Source: Lysobacteraceae bacterium (GTDB lineage Bacteria; Pseudomonadota; Gammaproteobacteria; Xanthomonadales; Xanthomonadaceae). Taken from it: a DNA stretch of 64,000 bases. The stretch lies in the NCBI GenBank assembly GCA_026005075.1, contig BPKJ01000001.1, positions 682,001 to 746,000 on the forward strand, in the 5' to 3' direction. This document shows, piece after piece, positions 2,107 to 18,457 of this stretch (position 1 is its first letter; each line of letters opens with the position of its first letter). The notes under the pieces were generated by a model, which did not search any database, was not told the origin of the DNA, and saw only the letters and a program-made list of their open reading frames with translations. Position numbers and translations under genes: made by a program.

Positions 2107-2161
2107 GTATCTCCTGGCTCCTTATATGTGTGGAAAGGTCCGCAGCGGGTCCTGCCAAGGA

Positions 2162-3391
2162 CTACTCGACCCAGCGACGGAACAGAAGGGATGTATTGAT
2201 CCCCCCGAACGCAAAATTATTGGATGCGATCACGTCGATGTCCATAGCCTTTCCGCCGCGCCCGATGTAATCGAGCTCGGCACACCGCGGATCGACTTCA
2301 TCGAGATTGATGTTCGGCGCGAACCAGCCGCTGCGCATCATCTCGATACTGATCCAGGCCTCGATCGCTCCACAGGCGCCCAGAGTATGCCCCATGTACC
2401 CCTTCAACGAGGAAACGGGCACACACGACCCGTACACTTCTGCCATGGCGTGGGACTCGGCGATGTCGCCGTGATCGGTGGCTGTCCCGTGGGCATTCAC
2501 GTAGCCAATCTCGGAAGCTGGAAGATTGGCATCGGCAAGCGCCAGCCTCATCGCCTGCGCCATGGTCGCCTGGTTGGGCTGGGTCACATGGCGCCCATCG
2601 CTGTTCGTGCCGTAGCCAATCACTTCCGCCAGAATCCGCGCCCCACGACGCCTGGCATGATCCAGATCCTCGAGCACCAGCGTGCAGGCCCCTTCACCAA
2701 GGACCAAGCCATCACGGTCACGATCGAACGGACGTGGCGTGCGGGCAGGCTCCTCGTTCCTGCAGCTCGTCGCAAACAGCGTATCGAACACCGCGGCTGC
2801 GGTCGCGTCCAGTTCCTCCGCGCCGCCCGCCAGCATGACCTTCTGGCGGCCGTAGCGGATGGCCTCGAATGCGTAGCCAATCCCTTGACTGCCCGAGGTA
2901 CAGGCCGAACTGGTCGGAATGATGCGACCCGTGATCCCGAAGAACACCCCCATGTTTACCGGCGCGGAGTGGCTCATCATCTTGATGTACGTGGTGGCGG
3001 TGATCCCGTCCGTGGTTTTCTCCAGCAGCATCCTGCCGAAATCTCCCATCGCGGCGGGCGTTCCGGAGGAACTCCCATACGCGATCCCCACATCGCCACC
3101 GGTCAGCGCTGGATCTCCTAGAAGGCCGGCGTCCTTTAGCGCTCTCTCCGTCGCCAATGTGGCCATCAGTGCGACCCGCCCCATACTCCTCGTGGTTTTT
3201 CGCGTGAAATGCTCCGGCATCTCAAAGTCAGCTGCCGGCGCTCCAAGTCGCGTGTTCAATCCGCGGTAGATGCTCCACTCAGGCATCACCCGCACCGCGT
3301 TGCGCTCCGACCGCAAGTACTCCAATACCGAGGGCCAGTCGTTCCCAAGTGGACTGATGACCCCTGCACCGGTAACCACAACCCGCTTCAT
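2162..3391 (-). CDS. apeR: Beta-ketoacyl-ACP synthase, aryl-polyene type (ApeR-like)
   Basis: A 409-residue FabF-fold ketosynthase that would condense malonyl-ACP with the growing polyene chain. The catalytic Cys lies in [15 protein letters not shown], one His in [11 protein letters not shown], the Lys in [10 protein letters not shown] and the second His in the same motif, so the Cys-His-His set is complete. The start [17 protein letters not shown] is chosen over longer reading because its ATG overlaps the stop of the ketoreductase by ATGA (3388-3391), as elsewhere in this operon. It is the last gene of the operon and occupies the ApeR position of Escherichia coli-type aryl-polyene clusters (order O-P-Q-R is conserved here). 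It could in principle serve housekeeping fatty acid synthesis, but its context argues against that. Confidence 0.92.
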
Positions 3392-4119
3392 CCCAGCATC
3401 CCCCCATCCACTGAGATTACCTGCCGAGTGATGTAGGCCGCATCCGGTCCGAGAAGAAAGGCCACCACCCCGGCGACCTCCTCGGGACGCCCAACGCGGC
3501 GCAGGGGAACAATCTGCGCTGCGCGTTCCGCTACTTCGACTGGCAGCATATCCGTGTCTATCAGCCCAGGAGCAATGCAATTCACGGTGATTCCTTTCTT
3601 CGCCAACTCCAACGCCAAGGCCTTGCTGGCGCCGATCAGCCCTGCCTTTGCGGCACTGTAGTTGGTCTGCCCCCGGTTACCGACCAGTCCGGAAATCGAG
3701 GACAGGATCACTATGCGGCCTGGACCACGCCTCTGGACCATCGGCAACACCAGGGGCTTCAGAACGTTGTAGAAGCCATCGAGGTTGCCATGCACCACGG
3801 CATCCCAATCCCTATCATTCATCGCGGGAAATGCCTGGTCACGGTGCATCCCGGCACAACAAACCACCCCGTAAGGTGCGCCCCAGCGCCGCACGGCATC
3901 TTCGAGAACCGCAGCACTGGTCGCACGATCGCCGATGTCGAAGCAGAGAACGAGAGGCTCTGCTCCCTGCTCCCGCAGCCGGTCGGCGACGGACCGGAGT
4001 GCCTCGCTGTCGCCGCGGCCATGCAAGCCGACCCGGTAACCCTCTTGGTGGAGTCGCAGCGCCACGGCCCGCCCTATTCCCCTGCTGGAGCCAGTCACCA
4101 AAACCCAACCTTCCTTCAT
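3388..4119 (-). CDS. apeQ: 3-ketoacyl-ACP reductase, aryl-polyene type (ApeQ-like, SDR)
   Basis: A 243-residue short-chain dehydrogenase that should reduce the beta-keto group of the ACP-bound polyene with NADPH. The Rossmann motif [14 protein letters not shown] is at residues 8-21. Ser (SSISGLVGN) and the YxxxK pair ([16 protein letters not shown]) are present, followed by [14 protein letters not shown] typical of FabG. Length is that of ordinary FabG (about 244). The gene overlaps its neighbours by ATGA on both sides (4116-4119 upstream, 3388-3391 downstream), so translation is likely coupled. The fixed order ketosynthase, dehydratase, ketoreductase, ketosynthase supports a dedicated polyene reductase rather than the housekeeping FabG. 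Confidence 0.92.
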
Positions 4120-4589
4120 GCCTCCTTTCCTCCTAGATAGGTCGCAAGGTCGGGTGGCTCGAACACCGCGAGCCGAGCCGAGGCAACGCTCCTACGGTCT
4201 TCGATCAAGCTACAGCGGAACGCCCCCATGCCATTTTCGCCGAGCAGCTCGCAATGGACCTGGACCACCAGTTCGGTTCCGTGTTGCCATCGATCACGCT
4301 CACACTCATACCGTCGGGTGCCCAGCAGGAACCCGGGTCTTGGACTCCCACCTGTCTGGTGCGAGCGCAACCCGGCCCAGGCGGCCACTGCCTGTGCCAT
4401 GTACTCGATGCCAACCCACGCGGGAACCGAAAACCCGTCCCCGAATGGTCCTAAGGCGTCCACCACGAGGTCTGCCTCAAGGCTGTCCCCTTGCGCACGC
4501 ACGATCCGGCGCAGAAACAACATCGGTGGACGATGGGGCACCACGACCGAAACCGGAGGAAGCCCCTCAGGCGATTCAGCATATCTCAT
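4116..4589 (-). CDS. apeP: Hotdog-fold 3-hydroxyacyl-ACP dehydratase subunit (ApeP-like)
   Basis: A 157-residue hotdog protein. [15 protein letters not shown] carries the His expected of FabA/FabZ-type dehydratases, and [15 protein letters not shown] is the central-helix motif of the ApeP family. In characterised aryl-polyene systems this protein pairs with a second dehydratase (ApeI); here the likely partner is the C-terminal domain of the 14004-15716 fusion. The start at 4589 is preferred over an upstream Met at 4670 because its ATG overlaps the stop of the upstream ketosynthase by ATGA (4586-4589), and because the extra N-terminus would only repeat that gene in another frame. The role is to remove water and make each trans double bond of the polyene. 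Confidence 0.88.
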
Positions 4590-5761
4590 GCTGCACTCAG
4601 TGCCAGGCAGACATTGCTGCCACCGAACGCGAACGAGTTGCTGAGTACGTGCCGAGGCGGTCTTGCGCATTGACCGCGCGGTTCCACCAGCGCAAGGGGG
4701 GGCAAGTCAGGATCATAGCCTCCGTCATACCAGTGAGGTGGCAGGTAGCGGCCAGGATTGTCGGCCAGTACCAGCCAACATATCGCGGCTTCGATGGCGC
4801 CGGCCGCTCCCAGTGCGTGCCCGGTAAGTGGCTTGGTCGAACTACACGGGACGCTGGCGGCGCCGAGTCTGGTGATCGCGATGGCCTCCATCTGGTCGTT
4901 CAACGGCGTCCCTGTGCCATGGAGATTGATGTAGTCGATCTGATCGAGGGCAAGCGACGCATCGAGAATCGCCCCCTTCATCGCGGCCAGCGCCCCGCAT
5001 CCGCTCGGATCCGGTGCCGACATGTGATAGGCATCGCTACTCTCGCCATATCCGGCAAGCAGCACGGGCCCCTCATCAGGCCCCAGGAGAAAGAGCGCCC
5101 CGCCCTCTCCAATGTTGATGCCGTCCCGGCTGCGTGAGAAGGGCATACTCAGACCGGAAGAGAGTGACTCGAGCGCGGCGAAACCTGCGACCGTAAAACG
5201 GCAAAGTGTATCAGCCCCGCCCACGAGGGCCACGTCCGCAAATCCGCATCGAATCAACCTAGATCCCGCTGCAATCGCCATGGCCGAAGACGCGCACGCC
5301 GTGGACACTACGTAGGCCGGACCTCGGGTTCCCAGATAGTGCTGCAGAAACTGCGCGGGTTGGGCCATTTCCTGCTTCGCATAGTGATAGTCTGGTGACG
5401 GACTGAGCAGGGCACGTTCGCTCTCCGCGATACCCGAAGTGCTGGTCCCGATAACGATGGCCACCCTGTCCGGACCATATCGGTTCAGGGCCGCCTCGAG
5501 CACCGGTCGCAGCGGCTCGATCAAGGCAGCCAGCAACTGATTGTTGCGACTCCTGAATTGCACGGGAACATCCTCGAGCAGAGGGAGCTCCTGCGATGGA
5601 TCGATGCATCCAAGCCAAGGACTGCGATCGACGAGAAAACCTTCGTGTGGGCGTAGCGCGGCCGGCCGCTGGTCTGCGAAAAGGCTTGCCGCACAGGACT
5701 CCAGTCCATTGCCCAACGCACAGATCAGGCTAGGCCGGGACAGGTACAGACGCTTGGTCAC
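4586..5761 (-). CDS. apeO: Beta-ketoacyl-ACP synthase, main elongating type (ApeO-like)
   Basis: A 391-residue ketosynthase starting at a GTG (VTKRLYLSRPSLICALGNG) that overlaps the upstream lipoprotein stop as GTGA (5758-5761); a longer reading would only translate the lipoprotein gene out of frame. Catalytic Cys is in VSTACASSAMAIAAGS, His in NLHGTGTPLND, and Lys/His in TKPLTGHALGAAGAIEA. In E. coli-type clusters ApeO forms a heterodimer with the chain-length factor ApeC, represented here at 17581-18328, although the two genes are separated by almost the whole operon. The sequence differs clearly from the 2162-3391 ketosynthase, so the two are not a recent duplication. Expected role: repeated condensation of malonyl-ACP onto the aryl starter. 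Confidence 0.9.
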   Translation of the reverse strand: MTKRLYLSRPSLICALGNGLESCAASLFADQRPAALRPHEGFLVDRSPWLGCIDPSQELPLLEDVPVQFRSRNNQLLAALIEPLRPVLEAALNRYGPDRVAIVIGTSTSGIAESERALLSPSPDYHYAKQEMAQPAQFLQHYLGTRGPAYVVSTACASSAMAIAAGSRLIRCGFADVALVGGADTLCRFTVAGFAALESLSSGLSMPFSRSRDGINIGEGGALFLLGPDEGPVLLAGYGESSDAYHMSAPDPSGCGALAAMKGAILDASLALDQIDYINLHGTGTPLNDQMEAIAITRLGAASVPCSSTKPLTGHALGAAGAIEAAICWLVLADNPGRYLPPHWYDGGYDPDLPPLALVEPRGQCARPPRHVLSNSFAFGGSNVCLALSAA

Positions 5762-6297
5762 GGGACGGCCTCCAGCACCCTCTCGACGACCTCCACATGC
5801 ATTCCCCACTGGGGGTGTTCGATCAGGTACGTCTCCCCACGCATTTGTATCCTTGTCCGGACCCTGCCCCGATGCAGTAGCTCGCGGCGATCAGTGCGGT
5901 CCAGCAGTTGCCAGCCGGATGGCAGTTCTCGCTGCAGCTGCGTTGCGTGTGCGCGGATCAGTATCAGATCTTCGAGTATCAACTCGGGGTCGAAGTCTTC
6001 CGGAACATCCTGGCTGCTCCAGCGCTGTTCGGCATTGCCATCCCACGTCAGCCGCAAAACAGGTTGTTCCATTGCGAACGCCAGAAACCGCAACGAGGCC
6101 TGGTCGACTTCGAGCACGACCTGCAGATCCCATGCCCTGTCACCATGGCGGATCCAAACCTTTTGCACCGCACTGCCTGCCTGCAGCATGGATGGGGAGA
6201 CTCCCCGCCACCAGGGATATGCAATGGGGGCGGATGGACGCGACATGGCGGTGCACGCCGCCAAGGTCAGGATCAAAGGCAGGAGAGTCAGGCGCAT
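5758..6297 (-). CDS. DUF3261-family lipoprotein (ApeN-like)
   Basis: A 179-residue protein with a lipoprotein signal (MRLTLLPLILTLAAC, lipobox LAAC, Cys at 15), so it should be lipidated and held in the inner or outer membrane. The body has the DUF3261 pattern: a charged beta-rich region with GDRAWDLQVVLEVD, PVLRLTWDG and a C-terminal YLIEHPQWGMHVEVVERVLE. Members of this family occur in aryl-polyene clusters next to the LolA-like protein and the MMPL exporter and are thought to help place the lipid-like pigment in the outer membrane; the mechanism is not known to me. It overlaps the flavin-enzyme gene upstream by 10 bases and apeO downstream by 4. Confidence 0.8.
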   Translation of the reverse strand: MRLTLLPLILTLAACTAMSRPSAPIAYPWWRGVSPSMLQAGSAVQKVWIRHGDRAWDLQVVLEVDQASLRFLAFAMEQPVLRLTWDGNAEQRWSSQDVPEDFDPELILEDLILIRAHATQLQRELPSGWQLLDRTDRRELLHRGRVRTRIQMRGETYLIEHPQWGMHVEVVERVLEAVP

Positions 6298-7512
6298 AGC
6301 TCGGCAAGTGCGGCCAGCCGCCGAGCTGGCGCCTGCACGAATGGGTTGCGCTCATCCCACGCGTACCCCGCGAGGACTGCACAGATCATCCTCCGGATCT
6401 CGGCGTTTGGATGTGGGTGAAAGATGATTCGTTGGAAGGTTCCTTCATACCAGGCCTCGACGAAACATCGGAAGGTATCGATGCCGCGGCGCAATGGAAT
6501 GGCGAACTCCCGCTCCCAATCGACCGCGTGTCCCGATAGCTGACGGTCCACGCAGCTCGCGGCGAGGGAGCTCGAGGTGAACGCAATGGTCACCCCGGAC
6601 GAAAATACCGGATCGAGAAATTCCCCCGCATTCCCAAGCAAGGCGAACCCGGGGCCATGGAGAGCCGCTACGTCGGTGGCATAACTGCTGATTTGGCGTA
6701 CCGGTGTGTCCCATGTGGCGTGCCTCAGCAGCCTCGCCAGGGACGACTCCTGCGACACGAAGGCGCGCAGCCTTGCCTCCGGGTCCTCACCCGCCGCATC
6801 CAGCACCTCACTTCGTCCCACCACCCCGATCGAGCTGCGTCCATCGCTGAATGGTATCAACCAGTACCACACATCTACCTGTTGGGGATGCACCGTGATG
6901 CGGATCTTGTTGCGATCGAATGCCCCGGGCTCGATGCCGTCACCCACGTGCGTGAAGATGGCACCTGCGCGAGGGGAACCGTGATGGTCGATCCAGCCCG
7001 AGAAGCCGTGGGAGGGTACGCCCGAAGCCACTGGCGTCCAGCATGCACTTTGCCTCGATCTCGTAGGTCTCCCCTGCGGTACTTCGAACGACGACCCTTG
7101 ACGGCTCCCCGGGGACAGCCTCCACCACCTGGTGGCCAAAGCGAATCTCTGCACCGGAGCGCCGCGCACACTCGGCAAGCAGCTGGTCGAACTCGGCTCT
7201 GCGTACCTGGTAGGTCGTACCCCAACCATCCCCAAACTTGTCCCGAAAATCGAAGCTCGTCTCATGGTCGCCATACACGAAGCTGGCGCCATTCTTGTAC
7301 TGAAATCCGGCCTCCACCACATCACGCAGCATTCCAGCCTGCTCGAGGTACGACATGCTCTGTGGCAGGAGACTCTCGCCGATCGAGAAGCGAGGAAACT
7401 GTTCCCGCTCCAGAACGAGAACGGAACGATCGCGCTGCCGCAGCAGCTTTGCCGCAACGGCTCCCGCGGGACCAGCTCCGATTACAAGGACTTCGGTGGT
7501 ATCACGTCGCAT
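6288..7512 (-). CDS. FAD-dependent oxidoreductase with flavin-halogenase motifs (frameshifted)
   Basis: About 408 residues when the two frames are joined. The N-terminal part starts MRRDTTEVLVIGAGPAGAVAA (GxGxxG FAD motif) and includes GESLLPQS and GFQYKNGASF, where Lys73 sits at the position of the catalytic Lys of flavin-dependent halogenases. The C-terminal part includes VDVWYWLIPFSDGRSS, matching the WxWxIP of these enzymes except for the leading Gly, then FALLGNAGEFLDPVFSSGV. Reading moves from one frame to the next near 6966-6976: ...LDRPSRFPSRR continues as AIFTHVGDG if one base is dropped. The start at 7512 overlaps the exporter stop by 11 bases. It could halogenate the aryl ring or intermediates (xanthomonadins are brominated) or act as a desaturase/dehydrogenase of the FixC-like family. 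The frameshift is probably a sequencing error. Confidence 0.8.
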
Positions 7513-9827
7513 GCTTTTCCCCCAACCGAGGCGTGGCCCTGACACGTAGCAGAGGAGATATGACCCAGACCGCAACGAGGCCAACAAGGAGCGTCAAGCC
7601 GAGAGCCCGCAATGCGGGAGTACTTGATAGCCCCAGCAATCCAAACGCCGCCAGGGTACTGGCTGCACCGAGGTTGACCGCCAGCCAGGAGGGTGGGTCA
7701 TTGTGCTCGAGAAGAAAGATCCCATAGTCGATCCCGATGCCCAGGACGAGAACCAGTCCGAGCACGGCAAAACAGGTTCACGGATTGGTCCAATCCCGCA
7801 AGCATGAGTAGCGCGAGGATTGTTGCCAGCAGAGTCGGCAGGTAGGCTCGCCATGCCTTTCGACCAAACCGCAGGGCGAGGCAGACCGCCACCAACAGAT
7901 GCGCAACGACCAGCAATGTGGTCATTCCTCTGCGGTAATCGCCCAACAGGCTGCTGTACTCGGCGGTTTGATCCACGAACCGGACTCCGGGTATCCGTTC
8001 GGCTGCCTGCGCCAGCCGTGGCAGAACATCGGGGCCCTTCACGCCATTCAACTGGACGATGCCATGCCAACCTGTCCCGTCGTTGCCGACGAGGAGCCAG
8101 GGCAGACGATTGCCCCACCCTGCTTCCAGAAGACGCGGAAGAGCCGCTTCGACGGACGGTGGTGGCGGCTCACCATCCCAGCCGGCGAGCCGTCTGGCCA
8201 TGGCGAATGCGTATGCCTCCGCCTCGCGGCGCAGCGCTCGATGACGCGATGCCGACGCTGCGTCCGGAACCCAGTCAGCGGCAGCTGTCCAGCCTGCCAA
8301 GTCACCCCCATCGCGCAGCGGCTCTAGCCTCGAGAGAAGCTGTCGCTCACGCACCAGCAAGGCATCGGGGTCTTCTGCTCGGACCACGAAGAACTGGGCA
8401 GGGCTCGGCAAGGCCAGTAGCCGGTTCAACTTCGCCTGTTGTGCCAGCCACGGCTCGGGAACACCCTGCAGCTGTCGCAGCGAGTCGTCCACTTTCGGAA
8501 GCGAATGGCCTGCCGTCAGCAGCCAGGCGCCGACGAGGACCAGCAGCAGCACCGCGAGACTTCTGCCCGACAACCTGGGAAAGCTTGCCAGTGATCCGGC
8601 AAGGCGCTCGGCGAGCGGCGTCATTGGTGGCGCGCGACCATCGACGACCGGGAACACGATCAGAACCGTAAGGAAAGCGGCGCTCAATCCCACAACCGAA
8701 AACACCGCCATCTGGCGCAAGCCCGGTAGGGCGGGCCCACCTAGGACGCCATAGGCCACGGCACTGGTCAGAAGTGCCATTGCGAGGCTCGGCCTGATCC
8801 TGGCAAGCACCTCAACAGCAGGAACCTGCGGGCTGGCCTGGCGGGCTGCAAAGTAGTGAATCCCGTAGTCTTCGGCAACGCCGACGAGGCTCGCACCGAA
8901 CACCAGCGTCAGCACGTGAACTTGGTCGAAAAGAGCAAGCGTGGCCCAGAGCCCCATCAGACAGCCAACCAGCAGGCTAAGGGTCACCAGCGCAAGCGGC
9001 CGGAAAGAGCGAAACGCCAGCCACGCCAGCAGCAGAATCAGTGACAGCGAGCCGATGCTGATCGTGGACATCTCGGCCTGCGCCTGGGCCGCAGCCGCAT
9101 CGGCAAGGAGTGGAACCCCTCCCGCTACCACACGGGCCCCTGGGTGGCGATCGCGTACGCGTTCGGCTGCCACTGTGACGCCAACGCTCAACAGCCCGGC
9201 GTCAGCGAGCCGGAAGGCACCCTCGGGGACCTCGTACGAGCGCACCAGCCAGAATAGACCATCCCGCACGAATCCATCGTTGCCAAGATGGATGGCGACG
9301 CCCTGACGAGCTGCCAGCTCGCTCAGCCACCCTTCGAAAAGCCCCAGGGGATCGAGCTCCCACCGCCCGAACACGTCGCCGGGCACGGGCGCGAACAGTC
9401 GGCTTACGGCCACCTCTCCCCAGTACTGCGATCCCTGCCGCGCGAGCGAATCCGCCTGACCCGGCGCGAGCAGCACGTCGCGGTGCATTCGGTAGTACTC
9501 CAGCACGGCCACTGCCTCTTCCTGCCAGCTCTGATCCGCCGACAGACGCGGCAACCCCGAGACCAGAGATGTCTCGAACACTCGAGCAGCTGCGACCGCT
9601 TCGTCCCTGACCTCATGACCAATCAGGATGACCAGACGGTCCTGTCCGCGGCGCTCCAGCCTCTCCTGGAGATCCCGGGGCAACTCGCCCTGTTCAGGAA
9701 GCAGTGCCAGCAGGTCGCTGCTAACGCCACCGGACGCCAGGCGCCCACCAACCTGCCAGCAGGCCAGAATGCAGAGCAGGCCCCATAGCGACGCGAGGCC
9801 AAGAGAGTGCCCACACCTGCTAGTCAA
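7502..9827 (-). CDS. MMPL/RND-type polyene exporter (ApeM-like, frameshifted)
   Basis: A membrane exporter of about 775 residues with the MMPL/SSD layout: one N-terminal membrane segment, a periplasmic loop, a block of membrane segments containing GVAEDYGIHYFAARQ, a second periplasmic loop and a second block containing LGIGIDYGIFLLEH. Both GxxxDYG motifs carry the Asp-Tyr used in proton relay. The main frame reads to ...LDQSVNLF and would then run out of register; dropping one T from a TTTT run (7767-7770 on the plus strand) restores AVLGLVLVLGIGIDYG through to a stop at 7502. The gene overlaps the LolA-like gene by 8 bases. Proteins of this type in aryl-polyene clusters are thought to move the product across the inner membrane, handing it to the LolA-like carrier. 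Confidence 0.87.
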
Positions 9828-10383
9828 GGCTAGCCGCCTCCGCTTCGGTGAGCGACGGATCCGCCGATTCCAGATGGATCAGTCTGACCTTCGTCTTGTT
9901 CCCAAGCCCATCCTCGAACGCGACGGCCCGCACCCGCCGATCTCCTCGCAGTTCGATACGTCTGATGCGCTCGACCAGGGTTGCTGACTGCGGTGACAAA
10001 CGGGCAGCCCACTGTCCCTGATCCACACTGAGCTCGATATCGAACTCGCGTTCGAGACGCGTGATGTCCATCTGCAAGAGCGCCTCAAGCCACTCCCCAA
10101 GACCGGGAACCGTCTGTTCACTGGATCGGCCGGCAACGATCCTCCATGACGCCGGGAAGGGCTTATCGGTCTGCCACAGAATGCCCCGCCCCCGAACGAC
10201 GAGAAACCGCCCTTCGCTCCTGAGAACATTCCGGAAGCCGCTGATTTGTTTCTCCTGCTCGAACCGGCCACGCAAGATTTCCGGGTGATCCAGAAGGTCT
10301 TCAAGTGCCATGCGCGCGTCGGCTGCCCGCAGGGCCGGCGCAAGCACCACCGCAAGCAGCATCAGCCAACCCACTCGGCTCAT
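9820..10383 (-). CDS. LolA-like periplasmic carrier (ApeL-like)
   Basis: A 187-residue secreted protein (signal peptide residues 1-20, ending ALRAAD) of the LolA fold: ALEDLLDHPEILRGRFEQEK, RNVLRSEGRFLVVRGRGILW and TDKPFPASWRIVAG are the characteristic N-terminal strands of LolA, which binds lipidated cargo in a hydrophobic half-barrel. This copy is shorter and more basic than housekeeping LolA and sits between the thioesterase (ATGA overlap 10380-10383) and the MMPL exporter (8-base overlap). The expected role is to ferry the lipid-like aryl polyene across the periplasm. The housekeeping LolA is not in the window. Confidence 0.85.
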   Translation of the reverse strand: MSRVGWLMLLAVVLAPALRAADARMALEDLLDHPEILRGRFEQEKQISGFRNVLRSEGRFLVVRGRGILWQTDKPFPASWRIVAGRSSEQTVPGLGEWLEALLQMDITRLEREFDIELSVDQGQWAARLSPQSATLVERIRRIELRGDRRVRAVAFEDGLGNKTKVRLIHLESADPSLTEAEAASLD

Positions 10384-10817
10384 GGCGCGAGCCCCAACTT
10401 TCGTAGCAGGACCGGCGGGCAGACATACTGCATCTCACCCGAGGCTGTATCGACCGCGACCTGTATGCTCCATCCTCGTGTGAGGACCTCACCCCGCTGC
10501 GCATCCCGCACGAGGTATTCGACACGCACACGGTTTTCCCATTCGACCAGACTTGCGTGAACCTTGAGTCGCTGCCCAATACGGACAGGGCGGACGAACT
10601 TTACACGCAGATCTACAATCGGCCACGCATACCCCGACTCCGCCATGTCCTCGTAGCCATAGCCGAAACTTCCGAAGAGCGCTGCCCGAGCACGCTCGAA
10701 AAACTTCAGATAATGTCCGTGCCACACCACGAGCATGGGGTCTACGTCGTAGAACGCAGGCGTCCATTCGATGTCTGCGGTACGTAAAGGTTGCCGCGCA
10801 GTGGCTGGACTACGCAT
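10380..10817 (-). CDS. Hotdog-fold acyl-(ACP/CoA) thioesterase (ApeK-like, 4HBT family)
   Basis: A 145-residue 4-hydroxybenzoyl-CoA-thioesterase-type protein. FYDVDPMLVVWHGHYLKFFERARAALF corresponds to the family core, with Asp in DVDPM at the catalytic position, followed by IVDLRVKFVRPVRIGQ. The start MRSPATARQ is used because it overlaps the ammonia-lyase stop by 8 bases, whereas a longer reading only repeats the lyase gene out of frame. In polyene clusters this enzyme may release or proof-read ACP- or CoA-bound acyl chains. The stop overlaps the LolA-like start by ATGA. Confidence 0.85.
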   Translation of the reverse strand: MRSPATARQPLRTADIEWTPAFYDVDPMLVVWHGHYLKFFERARAALFGSFGYGYEDMAESGYAWPIVDLRVKFVRPVRIGQRLKVHASLVEWENRVRVEYLVRDAQRGEVLTRGWSIQVAVDTASGEMQYVCPPVLLRKLGLAP

Positions 10818-12354
10818 ACAGCCTCCAGGTTTCGGAACGCAGAAGCTCGAGCAGTGTCCGCAAGTCGACATCAAGAGCCCGGTCGCTCTCCACCAGTGGC
10901 ACCTGCGCCGCGAGTTCTTCCAGCCAGGCTGCCAATACGCTACTCGGCCCGCGGGTCGGTTCCAGCTCGTAGCGAAGATGCATACCCTGCCTTGCAGCAA
11001 TGAGCATCCCCGCGGTGACCTGCTCGGTCAACTCGATGACCCTGAGGCATTGCCGGGCTGCAATCGTGCCAAGGCTGACCTTGTCCTGGTTGTGGCATTC
11101 GGTCGATCGGGAGAAGACTGAGACCGGCATGCCGTGCTGCAAGGCCTCCGCAGTCCATGCCGACACCGCGATTTGCAGTGCCTTCAATCCGTGGTTGATC
11201 GCGGCTCGCTCGCCACGAGCGGCGGATAGATTTGCAGGCAGTCCGTGGCTGTACTTGGGATCGACGAGAAGTGCAAGCTGGCGATCCAGCAGGTCTGCAA
11301 CATTCGCCACCGCAGCCTTGAGCGAATCCATTCCTTGAGCAACATGGCCGCCGTAAAAATGGCCACCATGAAGCACCCTTCCGTCTTCTGGATCCAGGAG
11401 TGGATTGTCGTTCGCGCTGTTCAGCTCCGTCTCGATCCATCCACGGAGGTACTCCAACGTATCCTCGAGCACACCAATCACATGAGGTGCACAACGCAGC
11501 GAGTAGCGATCCTGTATTCGCTGCTCGTTGCGTGGAGGTCGATCGGCAGCGAGATCTCCTCGCAAGCGTTCCGCGGTACGTAGCATTCCGGGGTGCGGCT
11601 TGGCCCGGAAAAGCCGCTCGTCGAAATGGTGGGCATTGCCTCCTGTGGCGTAGACATTGCATGCCGTGATGCGGGTCGCAAGCTTGGCAAGATAGGCCGC
11701 GCGGGAAAGCGCGAGGCACGCGAGCCCGGTCATTACCGCGGTTCCGTTCATGATGGCCAACCCTTCCTTGGGCCGGAGCCGCAATGGCTGCCTACCAATC
11801 CGGCACAACGCCTCGGCGGCAGGAAGGGTCTCGCCAGCAAACCGAGCTTCCCGCTCTCCGCACAACATCGCAGCGAGATAGGAAAGGGGCGTAAGATCCC
11901 CGCTCGCACCTACCGATCCCTCGGTGGGCATCCTGGGCAGTACATCGCAGCGAAGACATGCCGCAAGTTGGTCAAGAAGCTCGTAACTGACTCCGGACAT
12001 CCCCTGGCAAAGGGATGCAAGGCGCACGGCCATCACTGCACGGACCTGCTCGGCATCGAGTTCCTGCCCGAGCCCGCATCCATGATAGGTGTAGAGGTGG
12101 TGAGGCAGTTCCTGGATCAGCTCCGGTGGAATGCTGACCGTGCAGGAATCTCCATATCCAGTGGTTACTCCGTAGATCACGCCGTCCTCGGCAAGCAGGC
12201 GTTCGATGACGGAAGCGCCCCTTCGAATCCTCCCGACAAAGTCCGGATCGACCGACAGCTCTGGCTCGCGTCGACGCTTGGCAAGATCGACGATGTGCTC
12301 GACGCGCAAGGCGGTTCCGTCGAACAGCACACGGTCCTTGTCAGGTTCGCACAT
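10810..12354 (-). CDS. Aromatic amino acid ammonia-lyase (HAL/TAL/PAL family)
   Basis: A 514-residue MIO enzyme of the histidine/tyrosine/phenylalanine ammonia-lyase family. The self-cyclising Ala-Ser-Gly triad is at residues 150-152 (TEGSVGASGDLTPLSY) and the catalytic Tyr loop is YGVTTGYGDS at residues 61-70. NSANDNPLL and QDRYSLRCAPHVIG are also conserved. The selectivity segment reads LYTYHGCGLG (87-96), so the Ser-His typical of histidase is Tyr-His here. Together with the context this suggests an aromatic substrate: deamination of tyrosine would give 4-coumarate, a possible aryl starter. Histidase cannot be excluded, but no hut gene is nearby. The start MCEPDKD overlaps the acyltransferase by 14 bases. 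Such lyases occur in some but not all aryl-polyene clusters. Confidence 0.87.
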   Translation of the reverse strand: MCEPDKDRVLFDGTALRVEHIVDLAKRRREPELSVDPDFVGRIRRGASVIERLLAEDGVIYGVTTGYGDSCTVSIPPELIQELPHHLYTYHGCGLGQELDAEQVRAVMAVRLASLCQGMSGVSYELLDQLAACLRCDVLPRMPTEGSVGASGDLTPLSYLAAMLCGEREARFAGETLPAAEALCRIGRQPLRLRPKEGLAIMNGTAVMTGLACLALSRAAYLAKLATRITACNVYATGGNAHHFDERLFRAKPHPGMLRTAERLRGDLAADRPPRNEQRIQDRYSLRCAPHVIGVLEDTLEYLRGWIETELNSANDNPLLDPEDGRVLHGGHFYGGHVAQGMDSLKAAVANVADLLDRQLALLVDPKYSHGLPANLSAARGERAAINHGLKALQIAVSAWTAEALQHGMPVSVFSRSTECHNQDKVSLGTIAARQCLRVIELTEQVTAGMLIAARQGMHLRYELEPTRGPSSVLAAWLEELAAQVPLVESDRALDVDLRTLLELLRSETWRLYA

Positions 12355-13276
12355 GGGCTGGCTGCCTCCAGAAGTCGAAGAAGTTGAACCATTGATAGGG
12401 ATCGATCGCCACAAGATGCTCCAGCCAGCGTGCGTAGGCATCGATGTAAGGCACCAGCGCATCGTCCCGCTGCTTTCTCGGGAGGAAAACACGCTCGGCG
12501 ACCAGGGATGCATCAATCCTGTACCCGGCATTCTCGGGATGGCGCAGGCAGGAGATGAAAAACACCGGGCAACCCAGCAGGGCGGCCAATATCCACGGCC
12601 CTTGGGGAAATGGGGCGGGCACGCCCAGGAACGGGCGGACGGTGACTCTGCCGCCACCTACCGGAACACGGTCACCGACAATGGCGACGAATTCACCTGC
12701 CGCGATCCTGTCTGCCAGATCCGCCGCTGTGTGCACACCGATTTCTGTGACCTGCAGCAGGCGGACATTCCGTCTCGGGCCCAATCGGGACAGCAGTTCA
12801 TTGAATCTCTCGGCATGTCGGGTATGGACGAGTACGTTCAGCCGGAGCCCGGCGACCTGCTCGGCTGCAACTTGACACAGTTCGAGACACCCCACATGCG
12901 CTGTGATCATCAGGCCGCCGGAACCACGTTCGAGACAATCTGCGACATCTCGTATGTTGACGCAATCGATCCTCTCCTTCGGAAATCTCCCGCAGACCGC
13001 AAGCAACTTGTCCAGGATCACTTCGGCGAAGATCATGAAATGCCTCAGGCTGGACCAGCGGGAGCACGCACGACCATGCTCGCGACAGCGCTCCAGAAAG
13101 TCCCTGGATGCCTGACGCGCTCCGGCGTTTGCAATCCAGTACGAGAATACCACTGGCCAGAGTGCTAGGCGGAACGCCGGGCGGCCGAACTGAATGTACA
13201 ACGCAAGGAGGAAACGGATCCCCGCAACCCACGTCACCTCACGCCATTTGGACCAGTGGCGGGCGGTGGAGCTCAT
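12341..13276 (-). CDS. Lipid A-type lysophospholipid acyltransferase (LpxL/HtrB family)
   Basis: A 311-residue LPLAT enzyme. The N-terminus has a hydrophobic anchor (WVAGIRFLLALYIQFGRPAFRLAL split around residues 16-40), followed by MITAHVGCLELCQ, where HVGCLE matches the HX4(D/E) catalytic pattern, then GDRVPVGGGRVTVRPFLG and FPQGPWILAALLGCPVFF typical of the HtrB group. In E. coli-type clusters the ApeJ protein joins a glycosyltransferase and an acyltransferase; here they are separate genes that overlap by ATGA (13273-13276). It probably esterifies the pigment or its carrier lipid at the inner membrane. Confidence 0.85.
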   Translation of the reverse strand: MSSTARHWSKWREVTWVAGIRFLLALYIQFGRPAFRLALWPVVFSYWIANAGARQASRDFLERCREHGRACSRWSSLRHFMIFAEVILDKLLAVCGRFPKERIDCVNIRDVADCLERGSGGLMITAHVGCLELCQVAAEQVAGLRLNVLVHTRHAERFNELLSRLGPRRNVRLLQVTEIGVHTAADLADRIAAGEFVAIVGDRVPVGGGRVTVRPFLGVPAPFPQGPWILAALLGCPVFFISCLRHPENAGYRIDASLVAERVFLPRKQRDDALVPYIDAYARWLEHLVAIDPYQWFNFFDFWRQPAHVRT

Positions 13277-14007
13277 GAGAGTCGATCGCGCAACAGTGAA
13301 GGCAGACGACGGAGCATTCCGAAAAAGAGCCGCGCGTGCATCAAGGAGATCCTGGCGTTATCGCGCACTAGATCGAAATGGGAAATGCCATCCCGCGGAT
13401 AGGTCACAGGGGTATCCAGGTTGTGGATGCGAATTCCTTGCCAATGCATGCGCACCAGCACGTCCGTATCGAAATCCATGCGCTGTCCAAGGCGCACCTG
13501 CTTCGAAAGCTGGCACAGAGGCACCAGTGGATAGACCCTGTATCCACACATGGCATCCCGAATGTCGAAGCTGAGGGTATTGATCCACACCCAGACATGC
13601 GTCAGGTAGCGCCCGTAATAACGGAGCCTTGGAACTGAGGCGTCGTAAGCGGGCACCCCGCAGATGACGGCATCCATGTGTTTCCTGGCGAGCTCGAGGA
13701 ACCTGGGCAGCTGAGCGGGATCGTGCTGCCCGTCCGCGTCGATCTGGACCATATGCGAGTAGCCACGCTCGTGGGCCCAATGCGCACCAGCGAGAACTGC
13801 CGCTCCTTTCCCCTGATTTCGGGATAAATGCAAGACACGAACGCGATCCGGATGGGCCAGCTCGATCTCGTCCAGAACCTGCGCGCAGGGCTGATCGCTT
13901 CCGTCATCCACAAGCAGGCAGTCCACTCCGTGTCGAAGCACGCCACGGACCATCTCGGCGATGGTAGTGGGATGGTTGTAGACCGGGAAAACAACGATGA
14001 CTTTCAT
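13273..14007 (-). CDS. Glycosyltransferase family 2
   Basis: A 244-residue GT-A glycosyltransferase. It begins MKVIVVFPVYNHPTTIAEM, has VDDGSDQPCAQVLDEIE, and carries the metal-binding DADGQHDPAQLPRF (DxD-like). It has GNACGYRVYP-like features near the C-terminus (FDIRDAMCGYRVYPL) and no membrane segments, so it is probably a dolichyl-phosphate-mannose-synthase-like enzyme acting on the cytoplasmic face. The start at 14007 is fixed by ATGA overlap with the ligase-dehydratase stop at 14004. In the operon it would attach a sugar or similar head to the pigment lipid; the donor cannot be read from sequence. Confidence 0.88.
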   Translation of the reverse strand: MKVIVVFPVYNHPTTIAEMVRGVLRHGVDCLLVDDGSDQPCAQVLDEIELAHPDRVRVLHLSRNQGKGAAVLAGAHWAHERGYSHMVQIDADGQHDPAQLPRFLELARKHMDAVICGVPAYDASVPRLRYYGRYLTHVWVWINTLSFDIRDAMCGYRVYPLVPLCQLSKQVRLGQRMDFDTDVLVRMHWQGIRIHNLDTPVTYPRDGISHFDLVRDNARISLMHARLFFGMLRRLPSLLRDRLS

Positions 14008-15716
14008 GCGCCGGCTCCCGCATCGAACCGGAGTCGGCCGGACGCATGGACGCCCTCCGCCGAGGTCAACTCGAAAGCCACACTGGTGCCGGCGCCTTGC
14101 AGAACAACCCGCACCCGTGCTTCCAGTCCCGGGCGGATCAGCCGGTGAAACTTGAGCTGTTCGATGGCGCGGAAGCTTCCGCGCAATCCAAAGCGATCCC
14201 GGGCCCAGGTTCCGACCCAGTGCAGCATGGCAACACCGGGCAAAACGGGTGCACCCGGGAAATGACCCTGGAACCATTCCTGGTCACCCCCCAGGCGGAA
14301 GCAGCCCACCAGCTCGGTCGGCCCTGTGGCGGACCATTGCACCCTTGGCGTCCGCGATGCAAGCATCCGCTCCACGATCCGCCGCGACACCTTGCCTTGC
14401 GCGTCGCGTGGCACCGCATTCACGAACCGCCATCGCCTGGGCCAGGCGACCCGATCAACGGCTCCGGCGAGAGCGGCCTGCAACCGCACGATCCACCGTC
14501 GGCGTTGCGCCTCGCTCACGGGCAGTTTCGCGTCCTCGCCAAGCTCAACCAGCGCCGCCGTACGTTGCCCGAGGTCGATCGGACAGGCCACATGGACGTC
14601 CTTCACGCCAGGCACGGTCGCAAGTGCTCGTTCGATCGCCCGAAGCGAGACGCGCATGCCTTCGATCTTGACGATCCGATCCCCGCGGCCTACGTGGCGA
14701 AACCCGCCGTGCACCGCCTCGACCCGATCACTGCTGGTCCACCAATCCCCGCGCCGATGCAGGAACGGTGATCGCACGACAAGCATTCCGGCCTCGACGC
14801 GCCATTCCACGCCCGGCAGCGGCACCCAGGGCCGATCGGCGGAATCACGCATGCGCCACGCAATTCCACCGGTCTCGGTGCTCCCCAGAATCTCGCACAC
14901 CGGGATACCCAGCACATCACGCGCAAGCGAGGCGCCCTCCTCCTGCAGAGGCCCCGCGGAACTGAAAACACGGCGCAACATGGCTCGCGCCGGCAGCCAG
15001 TCATGCGCGCCATTGAGCCGCGACAGATGGGACGGCGTACTGACCAGCCAGCATGCCTGGCGTCCCAGCGCTTTCGGCAGTTCCTCGGGATAACGGATTC
15101 GCCATCGTAGTATCGGCCTGCCCGCACACAGGGGCCACAGGACGCGGAACAGCAAACCGTAGATATGTTGGTGCGACACGGTCCCGACTACCGACACGCG
15201 CTCCGCCGTCCCGAAGACGGTTTCGAGCGCGGAAATCTCCTCCTCCAGCTGCCTGAGGCACTTGCCAACCGGCCTGGGATCGCCGCTGCTGCCAGACGTG
15301 AACAAGCACAAGGCCGTCTCCTCCGGCCCGAGCATCCACTCCTGGGGACCGTTCGCACTGGGGGCTGTGGACACCCCTGACACCATCCGCGCACCTTCGA
15401 GGTTGACCGGCGTGTCCACGATCCACCCGGCCACGAGAGGCTCCACTCGCGACACCGTACCCGGCAGCAGATCTGCTGGCAGCACTACGGACCGCCCCGC
15501 GAGCCAGCAACCGAAGATCGCCGCGGCGAATTCGAGCGGGTCCTCAAGCGAGATTGCAATCGCTCCGGGACCGTAGCCTTCCACCGCTCGCCGCCACACT
15601 TGCGCCCTCAGCCGCAAGTGTCCTTCCGACACGGTCTGAGATTCGTCCGCGAGCACCATACGCCCCGGATCGACAGGGGCTGCCATGAGCTTGCCAAGCG
15701 GTCGCCACTCAGCCAT
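14004..15716 (-). CDS. AMP-dependent aryl ligase fused to a hotdog dehydratase (ApeH-ApeI-like)
   Basis: A 570-residue fusion. Residues 1 to about 440 form an ANL adenylating enzyme: LCLFTSGSSGDPRPVGK is the P-loop, EILGSTETGGIAWR the A5-like motif, HVGRGDRIVKIEGMRVSL the hinge and C-terminal subdomain, and RDAQGKVSRRIV the catalytic Lys region. It would activate the aryl acid (4-coumarate or a hydroxybenzoate) and load an ACP. The last ~120 residues have WFQGHFPGAPVLPGVAMLHWV, the catalytic His and Pro-Gly pattern of FabZ/ApeI dehydratases. In E. coli these are separate proteins. The start at 15716 is chosen because it overlaps the membrane-protein stop by 8 bases. Confidence 0.88.
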   Translation of the reverse strand: MAEWRPLGKLMAAPVDPGRMVLADESQTVSEGHLRLRAQVWRRAVEGYGPGAIAISLEDPLEFAAAIFGCWLAGRSVVLPADLLPGTVSRVEPLVAGWIVDTPVNLEGARMVSGVSTAPSANGPQEWMLGPEETALCLFTSGSSGDPRPVGKCLRQLEEEISALETVFGTAERVSVVGTVSHQHIYGLLFRVLWPLCAGRPILRWRIRYPEELPKALGRQACWLVSTPSHLSRLNGAHDWLPARAMLRRVFSSAGPLQEEGASLARDVLGIPVCEILGSTETGGIAWRMRDSADRPWVPLPGVEWRVEAGMLVVRSPFLHRRGDWWTSSDRVEAVHGGFRHVGRGDRIVKIEGMRVSLRAIERALATVPGVKDVHVACPIDLGQRTAALVELGEDAKLPVSEAQRRRWIVRLQAALAGAVDRVAWPRRWRFVNAVPRDAQGKVSRRIVERMLASRTPRVQWSATGPTELVGCFRLGGDQEWFQGHFPGAPVLPGVAMLHWVGTWARDRFGLRGSFRAIEQLKFHRLIRPGLEARVRVVLQGAGTSVAFELTSAEGVHASGRLRFDAGAGA

Positions 15717-16296
15717 TCCGAGCCCGCACCCGTTGTCGAACAAGCCATTCGCCCGCGAACAGCGTCCCAATCAACAGATAGCTGACCAGACCGTTGTAAA
15801 GCGTCCACGTCACGTCGTCGGCTGCCAGGGCGGTCCAGAGGGATATGCCACCATTGACCAGGAAGAACACGCACCAAACCCATGTGACCTTTCGAGCATA
15901 ATCCTGGGCACGCGCCGGAAGATCAGGTTCCCTGAGGCGGGCCAGTCGTTCGATTACCGTAGGTGGCCAGAAGACGGAGCCGAGAAAGAATGCAAGCAAC
16001 AGGGCATTGACGAGGACCGGATAGAGCTTCAGTGGAAGAACCTGATTGCTGGCCAGTGCCATCATGGCCAGTCCGGCCGCACCCAATCCGGCGAACCACC
16101 GGCCAACGCCACGCGAGCCAAGTGCTCTTGCCACCCCAAGAATCAAGACCAGGAATGCCACCGCGCGCGCCGAAAGCAGGGTGAGTCCAAAATAAACAAG
16201 AGCAGGATAGAGAACCGAGATCAGCACAAGGATGGTGCTGGTCAAGGGCAGGGAGCGCTCAGTTCTGCTTGGCCACCGCTGCAAGGGCATCGACAA
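15709..16296 (-). CDS. COG4648-type integral membrane protein (ApeG-like)
   Basis: A protein of up to 195 residues with about six hydrophobic helices (STILVLISVLYPALVYFGL, AVAFLVLILGVA, GLGAAGLAMMALAS, YPVLVNALLLAFFLG, VWCVFFLVNGGISL, GLVSYLLIGTLFAGEW). It matches the small membrane proteins often found in aryl-polyene clusters and sometimes mislabelled 'ketosynthase'; no catalytic motif is visible and its function is unknown. The annotated Met at 16296 would overlap the ACP gene by 38 bases; a TTG near 16245 would give a start just after the ACP stop and a membrane segment straight after it, so the start is uncertain. Confidence 0.78.
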   Translation of the reverse strand: MSMPLQRWPSRTERSLPLTSTILVLISVLYPALVYFGLTLLSARAVAFLVLILGVARALGSRGVGRWFAGLGAAGLAMMALASNQVLPLKLYPVLVNALLLAFFLGSVFWPPTVIERLARLREPDLPARAQDYARKVTWVWCVFFLVNGGISLWTALAADDVTWTLYNGLVSYLLIGTLFAGEWLVRQRVRARNG

Positions 16297-16519
16297 CGTC
16301 CTGGATCGTACGCACGGACCTGAATGCCTCTGGGCTTAGATTTCCTCCCACCAGCGGCTTCAAGCGCACGATCAGGTCAACGGCATCGATGCTGTCGATG
16401 TCCAGGTCATCGAACAATCGGGTCGACGGCGAGATCGTGGCGGGGTCGACATCGAACGCCGAATGCAGAATGGCAACCACTTGTTCGTAGATCTCGTCTG
16501 GAGTTTGCACTGCAGCCAT
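16259..16519 (-). CDS. apeF: Acyl carrier protein (ApeF-like)
   Basis: An 86-residue carrier protein. The attachment Ser for phosphopantetheine is in DDLDIDSIDAVDLIVRLK. A GTG four codons earlier is possible and overlaps the preceding stop, but the ATG at 16519 has GAGG six bases upstream, which I take as the start. It holds the growing chain or the starter during polyene synthesis. It lies directly behind the other carrier protein; the two share the pattern D-S-I-D but differ otherwise. No phosphopantetheinyl transferase gene is in the window, so modification depends on one encoded elsewhere. Confidence 0.9.
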   Translation of the reverse strand: MAAVQTPDEIYEQVVAILHSAFDVDPATISPSTRLFDDLDIDSIDAVDLIVRLKPLVGGNLSPEAFRSVRTIQDVVDALAAVAKQN

Positions 16520-16527
16520 GTCACACC

Positions 16528-16797
16528 TCACACACTGACAGAGGGAGAGGCCGCCGACACGAATGAAGCCAGCGCCCGGACGCTGGAAAAGTGCCTGCGG
16601 TTCTCGTCGGCGTCGGCCGAAAGCTTCACGCCGAAGCGCTTCTGCAAGGCAAGACCAAGCTCCAATGCGTCGATCGAATCGAGGCCAAGGCCATCGCCAA
16701 AGAGTGGCGCATCGCTGTCGATATCTTCAGGACTGATATCTTCCAGATTGAGCGCCGACACGATCAGTTTCTTGATCTCATCTTCCAAGCCGGCCAT
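16528..16797 (-). CDS. apeE: Acyl carrier protein (ApeE-like)
   Basis: An 89-residue carrier protein with the phosphopantetheine Ser in GDGLGLDSIDALELGLALQ. The start MAGLEDEIKKLIVSALNLE overlaps the upstream acyltransferase by 20 bases, and the alternative longer reading would only repeat that gene in another frame. Tandem carrier proteins ApeE and ApeF are typical of aryl-polyene clusters: one is thought to take the aryl starter and the other the extension units. Which is which cannot be decided from sequence. Confidence 0.9.
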   Translation of the reverse strand: MAGLEDEIKKLIVSALNLEDISPEDIDSDAPLFGDGLGLDSIDALELGLALQKRFGVKLSADADENRRHFSSVRALASFVSAASPSVSV

Positions 16798-17584
16798 GAC
16801 TGAGCTCCCTGACAAACAAATCCCGAAGTTCGCGATTGCACTCGCGCACAGTGACCCATGGATCCTCTCGCTCACGCGCTGCCCGTTGCAGCACCTCGCC
16901 CCCCCACTCAGGCAACGCCCGGATCGTGAAATGCATGCGGGCAAGCGGCACATGGTACCACTTCTGGCCCTTCTTCAAGGCCGGCGGGCGGCACTCGATC
17001 AACACCGGGGTTGCCTTGATGGCACCGCGGACCAGGATGTTGGCCGCCCCCCTTCGAAAGGGACCAAGCACCTGCCCGTGAGGCGTTCTCGTACCCTCGG
17101 GGAAGAGCACGAGGTTCTCGCCACGCTGAAGCGCTGCGATGCATGCATCGATGAGCGCGGAGCCTTCGTTGTTGAACAGGTAGCCCGCGGCCATGACCGG
17201 ACCGCGCGTGAACGGGTTTCGCCCCAGAGCCGCCTTGACCACGCAGGTCGCGTTCGGCACGCAGGCCATCAAGAAGACGACGTCCAGCAGGGTCGGGTGG
17301 TTTGCCACCACGAGCAACCCGCTCCCCTTCAGTCTGGACTCCCCATCGATCGAGTACGTCAGCACTCCTACAAGACGCATGAAGCGGATGAACGCACGAA
17401 ACGCCGTCGTGACGACCGCCCGCGCCCAGCGCTGACGGCGTCCGCGATCCCGCACGACGCCGTGGAGGGCCGGAAAGACCACCAGCCACAACACCAGTCC
17501 GCCCAGGCCGAAGGTCGCAAAGCTGAGCCCGGTTGCGAATATCCTCCACGCGCGACCTAGCGGCGAGGAGAGCGCCCCACTCAT
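16778..17584 (-). CDS. PlsC-type 1-acylglycerol-phosphate acyltransferase-like protein (ApeD-like)
   Basis: A 268-residue LPLAT with an N-terminal membrane helix (FATFGLGGLVLWLVVFPAL). The acyltransferase motifs are NHPTLLDVVFL (NHX4D) and LFPEGTRTPHG (FPEGT), with ALGRNPFTRGPVMA and PVLIECRPPALKKGQKW following. It probably moves an acyl chain, perhaps the pigment acyl group, at the inner membrane. Two starts are possible: 17644, immediately after an out-of-frame stop, and 17584. I use 17584 because it makes an ATGA overlap with the corrected end of the preceding apeC-like gene (see that entry), as elsewhere in the operon. Confidence 0.84.
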   Translation of the reverse strand: MSGALSSPLGRAWRIFATGLSFATFGLGGLVLWLVVFPALHGVVRDRGRRQRWARAVVTTAFRAFIRFMRLVGVLTYSIDGESRLKGSGLLVVANHPTLLDVVFLMACVPNATCVVKAALGRNPFTRGPVMAAGYLFNNEGSALIDACIAALQRGENLVLFPEGTRTPHGQVLGPFRRGAANILVRGAIKATPVLIECRPPALKKGQKWYHVPLARMHFTIRALPEWGGEVLQRAAREREDPWVTVRECNRELRDLFVRELSHGRLGR

Positions 17585-18328
17585 CCCCGACCCGTACCGC
17601 TCATGCTCCACCGCCATGGCCGGGCGGGTGCATGGCTCCGCCATTCAGGCACTTCCAGCCAAAGGTGACGGAGCACGTGAAGCGCGCAAGGCAGGGCCAC
17701 CCCCCCCCACCGCAACCTCGTGCGGCCCGGGCTCCGGTGACCGCAGCCGCAACGCGGGACCCACCCCACCCATCCTGAAGCGGGCAGCCCATGCAAACCG
17801 CGGATCGGGCTCGTCGAGATAAGGTCCATATTCCTCCGGAACGGCATCCTCGAAGACCACCAGCAACCCTACCGCTCCCTCCCGCCCCGCAAGCCGGGAT
17901 GCAAGCTCGAGAAAGCCATGCTCGACCCCCTCGGGCCCCGCGGCGATGGCAGTGAAGCCTCGGCGATAGCCCTGCCAGATGCTCAACTGGGCAGCAACCG
18001 CGTTATGCACCGACAACCCGAATCCAGAGGGAGAGACGGCCTCTCCTCGCACCAACTGCTCCAGCAACCGATAGGTTCTTCCGGGCTCACCGCGCCGTGA
18101 CACGAACACCAGCGCATCCGGCGTGATGGCAGGCAAGACATTCGCAGCAACCTGCAGGGCTGCGCGACCAACCGGCTCCAGCCTGCGCCGCAGCATCGCC
18201 GGCAAGCCATTCGCCCGGGGCGCATCACCCATGACCGGAAGCCAAGGATCCCGCGCCCAAGCACGCCATTGGTCCGGCGATTCCAAGCCCGGCGCCCACG
18301 CAGCCAAGGCCTCTAAGCTCAGGATCAT
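17581..18328 (-). CDS. apeC: Ketosynthase-like chain-length factor (ApeC-like), probable frameshift near its end
   Basis: The first gene of the operon, starting MILSLEALAAWAPGLESPDQW. It looks like half a ketosynthase: the region where an active ketosynthase has its catalytic Cys reads GFGLSVHNAVAAQLSIW, so it is non-catalytic and should act as chain-length factor with the ApeO-like enzyme. As sequenced the frame ends at 17645 with an atypical tail. Removing one base from the nine-C run at 17700-17708 instead gives ALPCALHVLRHLWLEVPEW and a stop at 17581 that overlaps the next ATG by ATGA. I regard that as the true end, about 249 residues. The start has no clear ribosome-binding site. Confidence 0.8.
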
Positions 18329-18361
18329 GGAAGAAGACTGCTGGAAGGACGAGGAACCGGA

Positions 18362-18443: not shown

Positions 18444-18457
18444 TATGCGAGGCTCTA

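Follow-up and report, generated by a model that had tools for sequence, protein, structure and literature searches.

A lyase-containing aryl polyene operon with a frame-split, halogenase-like flavin gene in a probably acquired island of a Lysobacteraceae genome

Gene content and order of the operon

The window analysed here is a stretch of 64,000 nucleotides from a Lysobacteraceae bacterium (assembly GCA_026005075.1, contig BPKJ01000001.1, positions 682,001 to 746,000), and its open reading frames include 18 closely packed minus-strand genes (2162–18328) that form an aryl polyene (ape) operon. Through Pfam and NCBIfam searches and comparison with the ape locus of E. coli CFT073 (apeA–R), the genes C, D, E, F, G, H/I, J, K, L, M, N, O, P, Q and R were identified in conserved order with 27–63% identity across the aligned parts, which confirms the sequence-only reading of this DNA in its claim of an E. 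coli-type cluster. Family E-values reach 5e-209 (NCBIfam) and the identical order recurs in dozens of genomes; the cluster is therefore more than chance. Several of the quoted gene start points are over-long starts of open reading frames.

The upstream end of the operon is formed by an apeC-like chain-length-factor/ketosynthase-like protein (17645–18328; PF13723, 7e-46; 35% identity to E. coli ApeC), an apeD-like lysophospholipid acyltransferase (16778–17584; PF01553; 47% to ApeD), two acyl carrier proteins, apeE-like (16528–16800; NF006617 above cutoff; 63% to ApeE) and apeF-like (16259–16531; PF00550; 47% to ApeF), and an apeG-like membrane protein (15709–16254) that shows 53% identity to ApeG over 105 amino acids and matched no Pfam or NCBIfam family. 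These are followed by a single fused apeH/apeI gene encoding an AMP ligase and a dehydratase (14004–15716; PF00501, PF22818) and by two genes that together correspond to apeJ, namely a family 2 glycosyltransferase (13273–14010; PF00535; 52% to ApeJ) and an LpxL-like acyltransferase (12341–13276; PF03279; 37% to ApeJ 243–552), whereas E. coli CFT073 has H and I as two genes and J as a single fused one. Further downstream lie an apeK-like thioesterase (10380–10817; PF13279; 48% to ApeK), an apeL-like LolA carrier (9820–10383; PF03548, partial TIGR00547; 27% to ApeL), an apeM-like MMPL/RND exporter (7502–9827; 29% to ApeM), an apeN-like DUF3261 lipoprotein (5758–6297; PF11659, 4e-18; a weak ApeN match of 33% over 58 amino acids), an apeO-like ketosynthase (4586–5761; NF006618 above cutoff; 48% to ApeO), an apeP-like dehydratase (4116–4670; PF22817 ApeP-like, 3e-17), an apeQ-like ketoreductase (3388–4119; PF13561; 52% to ApeQ) and an apeR-like ketosynthase (2162–3394; NF006587, 694 bits with a cutoff of 470; 59% to ApeR). 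One operon hence holds a ketosynthase/chain-length-factor pair, a ketoreductase, two dehydratases, two acyl carrier proteins, a ligase and LolA/RND export genes.

Two genes stand beyond the ape set: an aromatic amino acid ammonia-lyase (10810–12357; PF00221, 1e-156) in the gap between J and K, where it had been read from the sequence, and a flavin enzyme with halogenase-like motifs (6288–7512) between M and N. The E. coli CFT073 cluster is the reverse, having ApeA (c1204 in Table 1 of PMC8253772) and the methyltransferase ApeB and no annotated lyase or flavin enzyme; neither ApeA nor ApeB was found in the 18-gene operon by the CFT073 comparison. A methyltransferase had been noted as missing, and indeed none is present among the 18 genes. 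ApeB-type enzymes are also absent genome-wide: E. coli ApeB found nothing convincing in the whole genome (best E 0.007) and an ApeB-type methyltransferase profile had no match at E ≤ 1e-80, both searches being aimed at this type of methyltransferase alone. A second ape cluster in this genome was rejected as the chain-length-factor family was found at one place only, and a suspected pigment locus elsewhere (L132) proved, read by eye, to hold other genes.

The cluster is not unusual. A search with the lyase as query showed that at least 80 loci exist; 80 were listed as a sample, and 65 of these held all seven marker genes and were counted, with the remaining 15 dropped (short contigs, or a lyase without the other genes). 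Among the listed loci the same architecture and order are found widely in Lysobacteraceae, Burkholderiales and Myxococcota, and lyase, flavin enzyme and the other markers occur together in at least 49 loci. Clusters from Stenotrophomonas, Pseudoxanthomonas, Silanimonas lenta, Arenimonas, Myxococcus and Corallococcus contain the same genes in mostly the same order, with lyases 67–73% identical to that of the window. In five listed stretches (L038, L095, L099, L107, L112) relatives of the lyase (61–67%) are accompanied by few or no other ape genes.

The ammonia-lyase and the starter unit

The lyase open reading frame spans 10810–12657, with the start probably nearer to 12357. Among NCBIfam models it scores best with the BagA/FevW tyrosine ammonia-lyase (TAL; 407 bits), followed by HutH (400 bits), both below cutoff, and the FlxA model reached 287 bits (cutoff 700). 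The Ala-Ser-Gly triad (ASG) of the methylideneimidazolone (MIO) group is present, a feature shared by 65 of the 66 ape lyases with this one counted, and the selectivity pair is Tyr-His, found in 63 of these 66 enzymes with Phe-His in the other three. By comparison, all 12 distant, unnamed members of the family show Ser-His and a separate, putative hutH-like paralogue at G000:C5 of this genome shows Thr-His. The equivalence of the selectivity residues was taken from PMC8773403, in which His89 of the R. sphaeroides TAL corresponds to Tyr105 of the S. clavuligerus TAL, rather than from our own alignment of those enzymes. In case of the H/I ligase, the best NCBIfam model is TIGR02372, 4-coumarate--CoA ligase (95.7 bits, below the cutoff of 334.7). 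Thus the lyase models, the Tyr-His pair and the best match of the ligase make a pigment start from tyrosine via 4-coumarate likely, with the lyase a probable tyrosine ammonia-lyase.

Two points weigh against this assignment: the lyase stays below every NCBIfam cutoff with HutH scoring nearly as high, and motifs gave an ambiguous prediction in the case of the flexirubin TAL FlxA, which still deaminated tyrosine (PMC3992019). The enzyme could instead be a histidine ammonia-lyase that has no part in pigment synthesis, with 4-hydroxybenzoate as starter as in E. coli. Besides the 400-bit HutH score, this would draw on a solitary gene for an FkbO/Hyg5-like chorismatase, situated about 71 kb away from the operon (L119, about 5560–6472; G000:C1, about 771.6–772.5 kb), which carries PF21168 in its C-part, is apparently frame-split and may supply hydroxybenzoate; the listed stretch of 10 kb that contains it shows no pigment genes. 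Given that the genome has its own hutH-like paralogue, that the pair is Tyr-His and that the lyase sits with ape genes in all 65 marker-complete loci (loci that were selected by the lyase), we consider a histidine ammonia-lyase highly improbable and retain the tyrosine start.

The sequence-only reading had placed the product closer to xanthomonadin than to the E. coli compound, and this did not hold: the gene set is E. coli-like, Pfam and NCBIfam revealed no XanB2-type chorismatase among the 18 genes, and the start appears flexirubin-like. Xanthomonadin and arcuflavin share with the window a type II polyketide synthase for an aryl polyene and, in Xanthomonas and Azoarcus, the presence of a halogenase gene, but differ in their XanB2-type chorismatase and hydroxybenzoate starter (PMC3691225, PMC3949708); the word 'ammonia' is absent from the main texts of these two articles. 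The flexirubin cluster of Chitinophaga pinensis pairs the TAL FlxA with a 4-coumarate-CoA ligase and so resembles the window in tyrosine lyase and coumarate activation, while it differs in belonging to Bacteroidota and in yielding an ester with a dialkylresorcinol (PMC3992019). Since tyrosine deamination and coumarate activation is the flexirubin way and xanthomonadin-like pigments and arcuflavin start from hydroxybenzoate, the start step would, by analogy, resemble flexirubin more than xanthomonadin.

Assignment of the flavin enzyme

The GxGxxG motif, the active-site Lys and the WxWxIP motif of the flavin enzyme are all present in the window, though spread over two frames: the motifs and position that had been read from the sequence stand, and the single open reading frame (6288–7457) to which they had been assigned does not. 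The two halves are 66% and 62% identical to the intact relative from Silanimonas (L044), and the Lys and WxWxIP are invariant in the 49 of 49 listed relatives. This Lys aligns with that of CndH and ChlB4, which we take to be the catalytic residue of halogenases; CndH/PltA/Bmp2-type halogenases are termed 'variant B'.

A profile built from 27 intact relatives matched 3nix, a Cytophaga hutchinsonii flavoprotein, at 465 bits, followed by 13 halogenase sequences at 195 to 86 bits; the first non-halogenase appeared at 50 bits, and below it were mostly other flavoenzymes together with one halogenase (5wg-) at 38 bits. For fold comparison we used a structure model of the Silanimonas relative L044 (predicted local distance difference test score 89.8) rather than the split gene of the window. 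The closest fold was again 3nix (Z 53.9; 43% identity to the modelled relative), followed by Mpy16 (43.3), ChlB4 (43.1), PltA (42.9), Bmp2 (41.9), FasV (41.5), RadH (38.3) and CndH (37.7), so that the model lies nearer to these seven halogenases (Z 37.7–43.3) than to PHBH hydroxylases (about 35). Among NCBIfam models, that of the CmlS halogenase scores highest with the Silanimonas relative, at 141 bits with a cutoff of 900, and it has a match in each of the 27 relatives.

Not all of this evidence points in one direction: CmlS itself (Z 34.5) does not exceed the hydroxylases in fold score, and models for the monooxygenase QhpG and for reductases likewise match 27 of 27 relatives. The enzyme could accordingly be a PHBH-like monooxygenase acting as ring hydroxylase, with the pigment gaining a hydroxyl group rather than a halogen, a reading that also accords with the ring 4-hydroxylation proposed for a Lysobacter pigment (PMC3691225). 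We judge it unlikely: after 3nix, both profile and fold rank halogenases first, and the halogenase-type Lys and WxWxIP are retained throughout the listed relatives. The intact relatives thus look, by sequence and by modelled fold, like variant-B halogenases, and halogenase is the better reading than hydroxylase.

Alternation of flavin enzyme and ApeB-type methyltransferase

The distribution of the flavin enzyme over related clusters appears to be complementary to that of ApeB-type methyltransferases. Among the 65 marker-complete listed loci, 49 hold the flavin enzyme only, 13 the methyltransferase only, three neither and none both. The three loci with neither enzyme are L035, L078 and L108; amongst the dropped loci, L094 shows a methyltransferase and L110 the N-terminal half of a flavin enzyme. 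The 13 methyltransferase genes of the listed loci lie in the M–N slot in seven cases, between H/I and J in five and on the other strand in one. Parsimony on one tree requires at least seven switches between the two enzymes. The Fisher value for the alternation, 3e-11, is overstated as the species are related: with three states the tree has 10 changes, compared to a mean of 14.9 with shuffled labels.

In an independent sample of 369 genomes of the class, the flavin profile (E ≤ 1e-120) was found in 16 genomes and the methyltransferase profile (E ≤ 1e-80) in 17, and 14 of the 16 flavin loci and, by reading, at least 12 of the 17 methyltransferase loci lie among ape genes. No stretch held both enzymes, and one genome held both on different contigs. 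The window's own genome was missed by the flavin profile, as expected for a split gene. A lyase is visible in seven of the 14 flavin ape stretches (some may be missed in stretches of 18 kb).

Methylation of the head group is the predicted role of E. coli ApeB (PMC8253772), and in flexirubins ring methylation and/or chlorination varies, with substitution ortho to the hydroxyl the sole pattern reported (PMC3992019). Taken with the alternation, this suggests most simply that both enzymes compete for a single site on the ring: the flavin enzyme and the ApeB-type methyltransferase may be alternatives for one position of the head group, presumably ortho to the phenol hydroxyl, that were swapped at least seven times, with halogen and methyl as interchangeable caps. 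We put this forward tentatively, as an idea with somewhat less than an even chance of being right. It is opposed by arcuflavin of Azoarcus, to which both a halogenase and a methyltransferase are assigned (PMC3949708, Table 1), listed in two separate loci; the alternation rule may therefore be limited to clusters of the ape type, or may fail altogether. No account of the alternation was found by title or start of abstract in the mostly non-subscription literature searched. In a cluster that is otherwise ordinary, the alternation is the one point worth following.

Frame changes in the exporter and flavin genes

Two operon genes are clearly divided between frames. The FAD-binding half of the flavin gene (GAGPAG) is encoded between 7512 and about 6970 in a different frame, and in the listed reading frame 6288–7457 homology to relatives is confined to the part below about 6970. 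In case of the exporter, the open reading frame 7698–9827 departs from the frame near 7780 and the remainder is found in another frame down to 7502, with the protein of relatives matching both frames. The last 35 or so residues of apeC are possibly also in another frame, which the tails of two of six relatives match weakly (E 8e-4 and 0.002). The flavin gene is one open frame in 49 of 49 listed lyase-containing loci having both halves, in contrast to the two frames of the window. In this assembly there is no intact flavin enzyme and no intact exporter, and with the flavin gene divided between frames, even a correct family assignment would leave halogenation unproven for this strain.

These frame changes could be real and the island decaying, such that little or no mature pigment would be made; for E. 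coli, deletion of apeM left only a low level of pigment (PMC8253772). Two clear and perhaps three frame changes within 16 kb, the long tree branch of the island genes and their low third-position G+C content compared to relatives (both described below) would be in keeping with decay. However, the other 16 operon genes run in a single frame over most of their length when compared to Silanimonas, Arenimonas and Pseudoxanthomonas (the tail of C excepted), catalytic motifs are kept, and genes outside the operon look split as well. When 446 kb of this genome were scanned by codon usage, 412 kb scored as coding, and these contained 21 candidate frame changes. Seven of the 21 junctions were inspected by eye, of which six resemble one split protein (L123 twice, L124, L128 near 3930, L114 and L119) and one (L128 near 1434) two separate genes. 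The split proteins appear, as named by eye, to be TonB-receptor-like (twice), PDH E1-alpha-like, alpha-E-like, WecB-like and chorismatase-like, with family search confirming the C-part of the chorismatase-like one (PF21168). Genes seemingly in two to three frames lie at L123 6420–8550, L114 5560–6356, L124 7978–9280 and L128 3341–4288. Such genes point to assembly indel errors or to many pseudogenes. With two clear splits in 16 kb the operon seems more densely affected than other parts of the genome, a point in favour of decay, although the detection methods differed. Given the apparently split genes outside the operon, we regard assembly indels as likelier than decay for the exporter and flavin genes, with a decaying island rather unlikely.

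The island between thrC and glnA

The operon lies in a low-GC island (740–18587), probably inserted between thrC and glnA. The G+C content of the operon is 0.627, compared to 0.716 in the rest of the window, and third-position G+C content (GC3) is 0.63–0.78 for operon genes as opposed to near 0.9 for likely genes of the remainder. GC3 is 0.67 for the lyase and 0.74 for R in the window, whereas these two genes range from 0.75 to 0.96 in 10 measured lyase-containing relatives. In the congener G002 the match to thrC stops at window base 739 and that to glnA restarts at 18588, the two being 232 bases apart in this congener; G003 shows the same empty site, with thrC and glnA adjacent, and in G001 the two genes are on separate contigs. 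The ApeP-like family occurs in 20 of 119 genomes of the family Lysobacteraceae, this genome included, and in none of the three congeners searched.

Absence from the congeners could alternatively reflect loss there. Because of the base composition, gain in this lineage is favoured over loss in the congeners, and the island was probably acquired. A tree of four concatenated proteins, covering loci selected by the lyase, places the island genes on a long branch within a Lysobacteraceae clade (support 0.999) beside Silanimonas, Arenimonas and a Lysobacterales metagenome-assembled genome (support 0.867); a donor outside the family is hence not supported among these loci. No exact repeats of 10 or more bases are common to 780–1000 and 18151–18420, no tRNA genes lie in 1–20000 and no integrase is among the genes scanned by family search, and for these reasons no mechanism of insertion was found.

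Adjoining apeR inside the island are two small minus-strand genes (828–1619 and 1660–2106), with starts that resemble signal peptides by eye and no Pfam family. Elsewhere in the window, a minus-strand gene (34031–42394) encodes a protein of 2787 residues that contains seven stretches of GEVED type and two that are SdrD B-like, and its neighbour (30318–33833) combines Calx-beta with an endonuclease/exonuclease/phosphatase domain.

Proposed pathway and implications

Each chemical step of the following scheme is predicted, from gene content, order and motifs and from the fold modelled for a relative. The lyase would deaminate L-tyrosine to 4-coumarate, which ApeH would activate onto ApeE/F, and the type II polyketide synthase (O/C with Q, P and I) would elongate coumarate into a polyene carboxylic acid. 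Release of the polyene and its attachment to a lipid would fall to K, D and J, transport of the lipid-bound polyene to the outer membrane would fall to M, L and N, and the flavin enzyme would halogenate the phenol ring where other clusters methylate. The predicted product is a membrane-bound yellow aryl polyene, derived from tyrosine, not methylated by ApeB and possibly halogenated. Of the unmethylated, possibly halogenated pigment from an aromatic amino acid that had been proposed for this DNA, the Tyr-His lyase and the lack of an ApeB-type gene support the first and last features, whilst the split flavin gene leaves halogenation unproven here.

With reasonable though not full confidence, we interpret the locus as a widespread, lyase-containing and E. 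coli-like ape operon in a probably acquired thrC–glnA island, with a likely tyrosine start, possible halogenation by a flavin enzyme and gene splits that are likelier to be assembly indels. Clusters of this lyase type predict tyrosine, not hydroxybenzoate, as the starter of aryl polyenes in many bacteria, and the alternation of flavin enzyme and methyltransferase poses a testable question, namely whether both enzymes act on the same ring position.

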